Shown here: piece after piece, positions 28,125 through 51,175 of the stretch
Layout of the letters: each line of letters begins with the position of its first letter
Numbering within the stretch: the stretch's first letter is position 1
DNA from: Streptococcaceae bacterium
GTDB lineage: Bacteria; Bacillota; Bacilli; Lactobacillales; Streptococcaceae
Assembly (NCBI GenBank): GCA_031285775.1
Contig: JAITVN010000066.1
Span: 1 to 64,000, forward strand
Direction: 5' to 3'
DNA: 64,000 nucleotides
The notes under the pieces: model-generated
What the model was told of the DNA's origin: nothing
Databases searched by the model: none
The model's input: only the letters and a program-made list of their open reading frames with translations
Translations under genes and position numbers: made by a program

Positions 28125-28364
28125 TTAATGTAGTTGTCCAGTTAAAAAAGCAACTAGTAAGACAACACCGGCCAGAAATAGATAAAAGTAAAGCAAAAAT
28201 ATCCATTGCTTTTTAGTTCCAAAAATTCTTTGCTTAAGAGAAATTGCACTATTGCTTGACACTGAAAAATAAGCAATTCCTGAGACTACCAAAAACACCA
28301 ACCCAAGAGCTAGGCCGATTAGTGCACCAACGCCCCAAATAATAAGAAAAATCAGCAACATCAC
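28125..28364 (-). CDS. Small two-TM protein, second gene of an XRE cassette
   Basis: MMLLIFLIIWGVGALIGLALGLVFLVVSGIAYF...WIFLLYFYLFLAGVVLLVAFLTGQLH. Strong RBS AAAGGAGGTGGAGTG before ATG, 19 nt after the XRE gene. Confidence 0.75.
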   Translation of the reverse strand: MMLLIFLIIWGVGALIGLALGLVFLVVSGIAYFSVSSNSAISLKQRIFGTKKQWIFLLYFYLFLAGVVLLVAFLTGQLH

Positions 28365-28383: not shown

Positions 28384-28590
28384 TTATACTTGCTTCTCGA
28401 AACTTATTTTTAGTTCCGTATCTGTAGCTTCAGCAATGTCTAATAGCGTAGATACTTTTGCTTGGAAATATCCGCTCTCAAGCCTAGCGATAGAAGATTG
28501 TGGCTTATTAACAATCTCCGAAAACTCTACCTGGGTTTTTCCCATTTCTTTGCGTAAACTCTTTATTGCTTTACCAGCTGGATTCCTCAT
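28384..28590 (-). CDS. XRE-family HTH protein (HigA-like antitoxin/regulator)
   Basis: GKTQVEFSEIVNKPQSSIARLESGYFQAKVSTLLDIAEATDTELKISFE; HTH matches the HigA-like protein at 35115-35402 (KPQSTIARIENG). Confidence 0.88.
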   Translation of the reverse strand: MRNPAGKAIKSLRKEMGKTQVEFSEIVNKPQSSIARLESGYFQAKVSTLLDIAEATDTELKISFEKQV

Positions 28591-28625
28591 ACTTGTATTA
28601 TATTACTATCGCTATATTTTGTCAA
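28591..28625 (-). promoter_or_regulatory. Consensus promoter TTGACA-N17-TATAAT with ATG 6 nt after the -10 (leaderless)
   Basis: -35 at 28620-28625, -10 at 28597-28602, ATG at 28588-28590 (minus strand). Confidence 0.8.
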
Positions 28626-28660
28626 CTAAAAATACCCTTTTTTCAGGGCATTTAGTTTTT

Positions 28661-34689: not shown

Positions 34690-34712
34690 AAAAGCCCAAA
34701 AATCGGGCTTTT
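34690..34712. terminator. Bidirectional terminator hairpin
   Basis: AAAAGCCC-aaaaatc-GGGCTTTT; minus strand followed by TTT. Confidence 0.75.
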
Positions 34713-34723
34713 GTTGCAAAAAC

Positions 34724-34758
34724 TTGACAAGATATAGCGAATCTGCTATAATTTGTAT
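34724..34758 (+). promoter_or_regulatory. higBA promoter with overlapping operator-like inverted repeat
   Basis: TTGACA (34724-34729)-N17-TATAAT (34747-34752); TATAGC-gaatct-GCTATA at 34733-34750; ATG at 34759. Confidence 0.85.
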
Positions 34759-35118
34759 ATGAAAAATCCTATATTTGATTATGTAAGACGACCCGACGGC
34801 TCAAGCGAGTTTGAGGATTTTCTGTCAAGTATTCCGATCAGCGATGCTCAGAAATTGCTTGCTGTCATCACAAAAACAGAAGAACATGGTCTACTAGTAG
34901 CCCAGCGCATAAAGTGGGTCAAGAAACTAGAAAATAATCTGTATGAATTGCGTTCTGAAGTCAGCGGAAACATTCAAAGAGCGCTATACTTCCAAGAGAT
35001 TGATAACAAGTATCTAATTACCCACGGATTTACAAAAAAATCGGACAAAACACCAGAACGTGAAAAACAGCACGCCCGAAATATTAGGGATAAATATAAT
35101 AAAGGAGAACTTAAATGA
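34759..35118 (+). CDS. higB: HigB/Gp49-like type II toxin (RelE superfamily)
   Basis: LLVAQRIKWVKKLENNLYELRSEVSGNIQRALYFQEIDNKYLITHGFTKKSDKTPEREKQHARNIRDKY. ORF-track start is a TTG; ATG at 34759 preferred. Confidence 0.88.
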   Translation: MKNPIFDYVRRPDGSSEFEDFLSSIPISDAQKLLAVITKTEEHGLLVAQRIKWVKKLENNLYELRSEVSGNIQRALYFQEIDNKYLITHGFTKKSDKTPEREKQHARNIRDKYNKGELK

Positions 35119-35402
35119 CTCAGACACCTATTAGAGAACTCATAAAAAAATACGATCAAGAGAAACCAGGCTTTAAAGCTGGTGTTGAGTTAGAAGAACA
35201 AAAACTGGAAGCCGCTCTTGCTGTCATGGAACTTAGACAGTCTAAAGGCTTGACTCAACAAGAACTTGCTAGATTATCCGGAAAGCCACAATCAACTATC
35301 GCCAGAATTGAAAACGGTAATATGAATGTGTCATTCAAAGTCATGAACGAGATAGCAACCGCCGTCGGGAAGAAAGTCAAAATTGAATTTGTGGAAGCCT
35401 GA
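35115..35402 (+). CDS. higA: HigA-like XRE antitoxin
   Basis: RQSKGLTQQELARLSGKPQSTIARIENGNMNVSFKVMNEIATAVGKKVKIEF; 4-nt overlap with toxin, RBS AAAGGAG. Confidence 0.9.
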   Translation: MTQTPIRELIKKYDQEKPGFKAGVELEEQKLEAALAVMELRQSKGLTQQELARLSGKPQSTIARIENGNMNVSFKVMNEIATAVGKKVKIEFVEA

Positions 35403-35460
35403 AATTCTATATGCTCGTGAATTACATCCAAAGATTTTGACTGTTTTATCAATATATCGA

Positions 35461-35487
35461 AAAAGCTCAGCAAATGTTGAGCTTTTT
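35461..35487. terminator. Bidirectional terminator after higBA
   Basis: AAAAGCTCA-gcaaatgt-TGAGCTTTTT. Confidence 0.8.
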
Positions 35488-35506: not shown

Positions 35507-36076
35507 CTACCGTGTATAGAACACAACATTTACAGCTGGTACAGTAATTTTTCCTCCCATCGTTGAATCATAACTATAAAGACCGTATACTGTCCCATAT
35601 ATGGTTACCAGATCATCTTCTAATAATCTATTTGTGCTCCAATAAGATGAATCTACTTCAACGTAATAAATATCTTCATAGCCATCTTCACTTGTAGATA
35701 CCCTTAACGCTGCTCCTCCGTCATCTAGATCCATAACTTGAATTACACTCCCAGAAAATTGAATCTTTTCTCCAGCGTGATTGTCTGCGTTTCTAGCCAT
35801 TTCATCATATGGGACTGTAGGATATGTAGCTGGATTTGTTTTATCTGCTTCTTCCTGCGCTGCTGCAGCACTGGCAGCAGCTTCTGCAGCAGCTTCTGCC
35901 TTTGATTCTTCCGCCGCTTTTGACTCTTTAGCTGCCTTTGATTCAGAACTAGCCTTGATTTCTGACGAAGTTAAGGCTTTTTTACTAGAGCTTGAAGAGC
36001 TTTTGTTTGTGGACGAACAAGCAGAAAGACTGAATAAAACAAGAAATGCGATTACCAAAGATACGATTTTTTTCAT
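35507..36076 (-). CDS. Lipoprotein with Ala/Glu/Ser-rich linker and C-terminal OB-fold-like domain (prophage moron)
   Basis: MKKIVSLVIAFLVLFSLSACSS lipobox; IQFSGSVIQVMDLDDGGAALRVSTSEDGYEDIYYVEV...DLVTIYGTVYGLYSY. TGGAAA-N17-TATAAT promoter (-10 at 36103-36108) and GGGAGG RBS upstream. Confidence 0.75.
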   Translation of the reverse strand: MKKIVSLVIAFLVLFSLSACSSTNKSSSSSSKKALTSSEIKASSESKAAKESKAAEESKAEAAAEAAASAAAAQEEADKTNPATYPTVPYDEMARNADNHAGEKIQFSGSVIQVMDLDDGGAALRVSTSEDGYEDIYYVEVDSSYWSTNRLLEDDLVTIYGTVYGLYSYDSTMGGKITVPAVNVVFYTR

Positions 36077-36138
36077 AAATTCCTCCCTAGAAATTATGAA
36101 CAATTATACCAAAAGTTGCAAACGTTTTCCACTCTCAA

Positions 36139-50401: not shown

Positions 50402-50791
50402 AGCTACCTCCTTTCTGTACTGATAGTTACAATTTTCTACTTTTAACCATTTCATACTGTCTTCGCTCACAGTGACCGTTTTTCCGTCTGCCGTACTTCG
50501 CGCATCACCAAGGTACTGTTCTGAAACGGGTATGTAGAATATTTGTATATAAATATAGCTATCTCTTGACTTATTTAGAACAATGTACTACAATCAATGT
50601 ACAAGAAAACATTACCCAGTAGTATTATTAACATTCTTGGCGGAGCGTTTTTCAATACTTCATCAGTTTTCATTTGCTGTAAAACAGCTATATTTATTTA
50701 CAAGAATTATTATAGTATATTATTCTACAGTTGTCAAGTGTTTTGTCGCATATTATTCTATAGTTCTATCTTTGTACGAAAGGACTTTAAA

Positions 50792-51175
50792 ATGGGCATT
50801 TACGATAGAATAAAAGAGCTCGCTGCCAATAAGCGAGTTTCCATAAGAAAAGTTGAGGAGGATCTTGGCTATTCTAACGGGACAATAAGGCGATGGAATA
50901 AATTTCCTCCAACCATAAACAAAGTTCTCAATATTGCAGACTACTTTCATACAACTGATGCCTATCTCTTAGGTAGAGTAGATGATCCCGAGCAATTTGA
51001 TTGGGATTCGACTATCAGGATTAGTAGCCCTACGGAAGAAGACCGCAAGGAATATGCTGATTTCAATCGCATGTTTGAAGGTGTTGAAGCGTACAACGGG
51101 CAACCAATGACTGAGCATGACCGCAAAGTTATTGAAGCAATGGTTAAATCATATATGGAAAACAAGGAGAAATAG
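50792..51175 (+). CDS. CI-type phage repressor (HTH)
   Basis: MGIYDRIKELAANKRVSIRKVEEDLGYSNGTIRRWNKFPPTINKVLNIADYFHTTDAYLLGRV; ATG after GAAAGGAC RBS. Confidence 0.85.
   Translation: MGIYDRIKELAANKRVSIRKVEEDLGYSNGTIRRWNKFPPTINKVLNIADYFHTTDAYLLGRVDDPEQFDWDSTIRISSPTEEDRKEYADFNRMFEGVEAYNGQPMTEHDRKVIEAMVKSYMENKEK

Follow-up and report, generated by a model that had tools for sequence, protein, structure and literature searches.

The higBA toxin-antitoxin operon of this Streptococcaceae prophage is best explained as a moron-like cassette whose toxin gene is predicted to begin without a leader, at a promoter overlapped by a putative operator, and a second cassette, encoding an XRE-type regulator and a small protein with two hydrophobic segments (XRE/2-TM), as a probable remnant of another such module. 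We assign this overall reading a probability of about 0.7.

Two cassettes at variable prophage junctions

The window, meaning the entire 64-kb stretch of DNA that was analysed, holds a prophage, recognised by its portal, terminase, head-tail and integrase families, in a Streptococcaceae-related genome. The higB gene (34759-35118, plus strand) encodes a 119-aa toxin of the RelE/HigB superfamily with a Gp49 domain (Pfam PF05973, E = 1.7e-17; 63.7 bits, cut-off 23.9), and its family profile matches the pneumococcal HigB of solved structure (PDB 6af3, E = 2.3e-9). It overlaps by 4 nt the higA gene (35115-35402, plus strand; 95 aa, HTH_3), which is preceded by an AAGGAG Shine-Dalgarno (SD) sequence, so that the toxin comes first and the XRE-type antitoxin second in one operon. 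An intrinsic terminator follows higBA (35460-35487, plus strand; -19 kcal/mol, z -5.3), and a further terminator hairpin (34690-34712, strand not assigned) lies between the portal gene and the higB promoter. HigBA is most likely an autoregulated addiction or defence module.

The operon, with this terminator of its own, is placed between the terminase and portal genes in the opposite orientation to the late genes, while the XRE/2-TM pair is located, in the same direction as the late genes, between the genes for the tail chaperone and the tape measure protein. Among related prophages, the terL-portal gap was near-empty in three and held other inserts in three more, and the chaperone-tape measure gap was short in one and held other inserts in three. 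Both cassettes are thus independent units between conserved phage genes and absent in relatives, and they look like phage morons, because in related prophages both junctions are either almost empty or occupied by other small genes. A lipoprotein-like gene (35510-36103, minus strand), with PHROGs mostly of unknown function, stands beside higBA at the terminase-portal junction.

Matching promoters and start sites

The higB promoter, TTGACA-N17-TATAAT (34724-34752, plus strand; -35 at 34724-34729, -10 at 34747-34752), matches the consensus at 12 of 12 positions and carries a TG before the -10; it is followed by the 6-nt discriminator TTGTAT and the ATG at 34759 (34753-34761). The XRE promoter (28597-28625, minus strand; -35 at 28625-28620, -10 at 28602-28597) has the same form and is followed by ACAAGT and the ATG at 28590. 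The original observation of hexamers identical to consensus, a 17-nt spacer and an ATG 6 nt past the -10 in both copies was therefore borne out, both promoters being perfect sigma-A consensus. Sigma-A promoters usually start transcription 7 nt after the -10, so that the 6-nt gap would put the transcript start, predicted here as everywhere below from sequence, on the A of the ATG. No SD sequence was found before either first gene, whereas both second genes have one (AAAGGAGA for higA, AAAGGAGG for the 2-TM gene). A hairpin (28625-28658, minus strand; -13.6 kcal/mol, z -3.8) reaches into the -35 of the XRE promoter.

Perfect TTGACA-N16..18-TATAAT promoters occur only three times in the window, and these two are among them. 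The third (50709-50737, minus strand) falls within the initial third of an ORF (50597-51175), predicted to be CI-like, whose PHROG match begins only at residue 61; the true start of the CI-like repressor is therefore probably later, and this promoter is likely a divergent early promoter.

The 17-mer claimed to be common to the two cassette promoters, TTGACAARATATAGCGA, was found as an exact match at only two places in the whole 2.26-Mb genome. Over 46 aligned bases of promoter and start, 33 were identical; the spacers agreed at 11/17 positions, and at 10 of the first 11 (P ~1.5e-5 for random AT-rich spacers in a fixed register, the stretch having been picked post hoc). A third genome match of the 17-mer, with 2 mismatches (L003), was not at an XRE gene, and another match (L279) had no recognisable promoter; both were discarded. 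Within the window alone the promoter pattern is weak, two matches at 3 mismatches being reached by 12 of 100 shuffles, and its main weight comes from the comparative data.

A predicted operator built into the promoter

The palindrome reported at higB, TATAGC-GAATCT-GCTATA (34733-34750, plus strand), proved exact, and is a predicted HigA-type operator whose right arm overlaps the -10. The proposal that both cassettes share this operator held for the left arm, TATAGC(GA), which is present at the XRE promoter; the right arm is lost there, and a search for a comparable palindrome at that promoter found none.

HigB homologues were sampled from 150 related genomes, plus 80 loci from 85,462 species genomes, and span Bacillota and Actinomycetota. 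The common form of the site in the family is GATAGC-N6-GCTATC(AT), with the right arm over the -10. Arm complementarity of at least 5/6 was seen in 20 of 52 loci at a spacer of 6, as compared with 0-2 at other spacers. A blind search of 400 Lactobacillales genomes for the palindrome followed by N6-ATG yielded 14 matches, 13 of them on higB, and the reversed control gave 1. When no ATG was required, GATAGC-N6-GCTATMAT was found at 24 distinct sites in 400 Lactobacillales genomes, 15 of them before higB; an ATG stood at exactly 6 nt in 12 of these 15 and in none of the other 9. Both the sequence and its conservation thus agree with a palindromic operator at the promoter, as in HigBA systems. A HigA recognition helix with K/R-P-Q-S pairs with an ATAGC left arm (19/27 vs 3/53; Fisher p = 2e-9, an optimistic value given that the sequences are related), and this motif is present in both proteins of the window (KPQST in HigA, KPQSS in XRE).

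None of the listed IMG/VR matches to the full promoter pattern was a higB gene, so the pattern is higB-specific only within Lactobacillales genomes. Many unrelated phage genes in IMG/VR (L149-L263) carry ATAGC-N6-GCTATAAT with an ATG 6 nt later, and one example gene of this set stands behind TTGACCCGAAATAGCCATTTTGCTATAAT; these are possibly other leaderless, repressor-controlled phage genes. At locus L278 (6453-6469) the same promoter and full palindrome, TTGACAAAATATAGCGAATGTGCTATAAT, precede a solitary XRE gene that, however, has an SD leader. At three further loci (L304, L305 and L308) the palindrome yields -10 boxes on both strands, and a divergent SD-led gene reads away from higB. The genome that contains the window has a second higBA (L064; G000:C117, 1149) with TTGACA-N17-TATCAT, 5 nt to the ATG, a weak left arm and the HigA helix KTQAT.

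Origin of the XRE/2-TM cassette

The XRE gene (28384-28590, minus strand) encodes 68 aa with a HigA-like HTH and an MRNP start, and the gene that follows (28125-28364, minus strand), led by a good SD, encodes an orphan protein of 78-79 aa with two hydrophobic segments. The operon holds no higB gene, its second member being this orphan, which had no match in Pfam, PHROGs, NCBIfam or IMG/VR; its only weak match in 200 related genomes (L067) was spurious on inspection. No relatives came up when IMG/VR was scanned with HigB, XRE or the 2-TM protein as single sequences; a profile scan of IMG/VR found one HigB locus (L148), and XRE had no tblastn match in phage records.

In related genomes, the best relatives of XRE were the HigA partners of the window's own HigB family. 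In the tree XRE fell inside the HigA group, apart from other XRE repressors (support 94/92), with a placement made uncertain by its long branch and the 62 columns available. The two window proteins are 38% identical, with near-identical recognition helices (GKPQSTIARIE in HigA, NKPQSSIARLE in XRE). The first codons had been described as similar (MKNP/MRNP), and indeed the MRNP of XRE fits the start motif M[KRED][NK]P, present in 35/74 higB starts and in none of 698 control ORFs. The kinship suggested for the cassettes is thus supported, and XRE/2-TM appears to be a degenerate relative of higBA.

It is improbable that the two cassettes are independent, their consensus promoters, 17-nt spacers and short start spacings having arisen separately and their similarity reflecting convergence on an XRE half-site. 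The same promoter-operator motif does occur at unrelated genes (the solitary XRE gene of L278 and the many IMG/VR phage genes), and 38% identity is low; but XRE groups with the HigA proteins of the same HigB family and has the start motif of higB. A recent promoter exchange, through which the XRE cassette gained its promoter and first codons from higBA by recombination while its HTH had another source, is quite unlikely: 16/17 identical bases at the 5' end, set against proteins that are 38% identical, speak for it, but the HTH itself is HigA-like.

Under the remnant reading, a single deletion, running from around codon 5 of higB to where the HigA HTH begins, accounts for the promoter, the spacing of the start codon, the first codons and the HTH domain together. 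This deletion-fusion origin is the most likely one, with four codons and the promoter as its basis; the closest HigA relatives of XRE (e.g. L012 and L019) are without the leaderless layout, and no deletion-fusion intermediate was found. Since the two recognition helices are near-identical, cross-regulation of the cassettes is plausible, and from the sequences XRE is expected to act at PhigB with greater ease than HigA at PXRE. The half-site still present at the XRE promoter most likely lets XRE repress its own transcription, and repression of PhigB by XRE is also possible. For the 2-TM protein, a membrane role, superinfection exclusion for example, is a guess.

The predicted leaderless layout across the HigB family

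A -10-like box was found exactly 6 nt before the higB start codon in 46 of 85 distinct upstream regions, and in 55 the distance was 5-7 nt, whereas only 6 of 367 control ORFs from the same loci had one at 5-7 nt; these family counts take related loci as independent, and hence overstate independence. An SD sequence (at least a 4-base match) preceded the toxin in none of the 52 leaderless-layout loci with a HigA found, and the antitoxin in 49 of them. In contrast, all the higB loci whose nearest -10-like box lay at least 19 nt upstream carried an SD-like motif, indicating that SD and leaderless layout are mutually exclusive. The leaderless start proposed for higB is therefore strongly supported by comparison; for XRE, a leaderless start is supported by the layout (ATG 6 nt past the -10, no SD).

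A 9-nt gap was found in 14 of the 85 upstream regions, mostly from streptococci and some with GGAGG inside, so strict leaderlessness is not universal in the family. In a streptococcal group (L009, L010, L087, L098 and similar) this gap reads TATCATGGAGGTACAATG, and its SD-like GGAGG may be absent from the mRNA, because it sits where the transcript would start.

It is very unlikely that, as happens in E. coli hicAB (PMC7167474), the operator-controlled mRNA serves only the antitoxin, whose SD in 49/52 loci would suit such a scheme, and that the toxin is made from a longer upstream transcript, since hicA has a ribosome-binding site on its longer transcript but higB has an SD in 0/52 loci, so that a longer transcript would not help its translation, and the higB ATG is kept at exactly the predicted +1. 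As spacing, SD contrast and blind operator search agree across higB loci, the predicted leaderless toxin start beside the putative HigA operator is better seen as an old, selected feature of the Gp49-type HigBA family.

Proposed mechanism and meaning

Under the moron-and-remnant reading, higBA would have been inserted between terminase and portal of the prophage as a type II toxin-antitoxin (TA) cassette with a single consensus sigma-A promoter. HigA, by itself or together with HigB, is predicted to sit on TATAGC-N6-GCTATA and so to block RNA polymerase, because the right arm of the operator is built into the -10. Transcription from the A of the higB ATG would give a leaderless toxin cistron followed by an SD-led antitoxin cistron, the usual effect of which would be an excess of antitoxin despite the toxin-first order. 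In the second cassette, an internal deletion that took out the toxin and the N-terminal region of the antitoxin would have fused the promoter and about the first four codons of a higB to the HTH-coding part of the partner higA, and the resulting XRE repressor would head a two-gene unit with the small membrane protein.

It can be suggested, tentatively, that leaderless initiation, in bacteria that make little other use of it, is a general expression rule by which this toxin-first TA family controls its toxin/antitoxin ratio, and that phages recycle these modules by losing the toxin gene, the antitoxin becoming a solitary repressor that would still recognise the operator of the toxin cassette and thereby couple the two cassettes. 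Toxin-first TA operons need a means of keeping the antitoxin in excess. If true, a leaderless toxin start held next to the operator, with an SD on the antitoxin only, would be a simple answer for a widespread family; higB genes would provide Lactobacillales with a defined group of naturally leaderless mRNAs, and the XRE cassette an example of an antitoxin turned stand-alone phage repressor.

Comparison with known systems

Streptococcus pneumoniae HigBA (PDB 6af3/6af4, PMC7984235) resembles the operon of the window in its toxin-first order, RelE-fold HigB and XRE-type HigA, and its promoter palindromes are bound by HigA/HigBA (PMC7984235). It differs in having four palindromes of another consensus, whereas the family of the window has a single GATAGC-N6-GCTATC site built into the -10, and in that the toxin start is predicted to be leaderless in the window. 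A literature search of incomplete coverage found no paper on this layout for HigBA in Gram-positive bacteria.

In Mycobacterium tuberculosis, TA operons are over-represented among leaderless mRNAs (32/37 pairs; PMC3898074), a feature shared with the predicted mRNA of the window, although about a quarter of M. tuberculosis genes are leaderless; leaderless TA mRNAs have also been suggested for three loci of Synechocystis. In enterococci less than 1% of mRNAs are leaderless (PMC7724050), which makes the higB layout exceptional for its host.

Translation of antitoxins usually exceeds that of toxins, and additional promoters aid antitoxin expression in toxin-first modules (PMC7167474). Like higBA, E. 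coli hicAB has its toxin gene first and an autoregulated promoter located where that gene begins (PMC7167474); the hicAB transcript starts inside the toxin ribosome-binding site and silences the toxin, whereas that of higB is predicted to start at the AUG, with no ribosome-binding site. Finally, the two cassettes share with phage morons a promoter and terminator of their own, a position between structural genes, and absence or replacement in relatives, but they differ in forming a pair with matching promoters in one prophage, and higBA is oriented opposite to the late genes.
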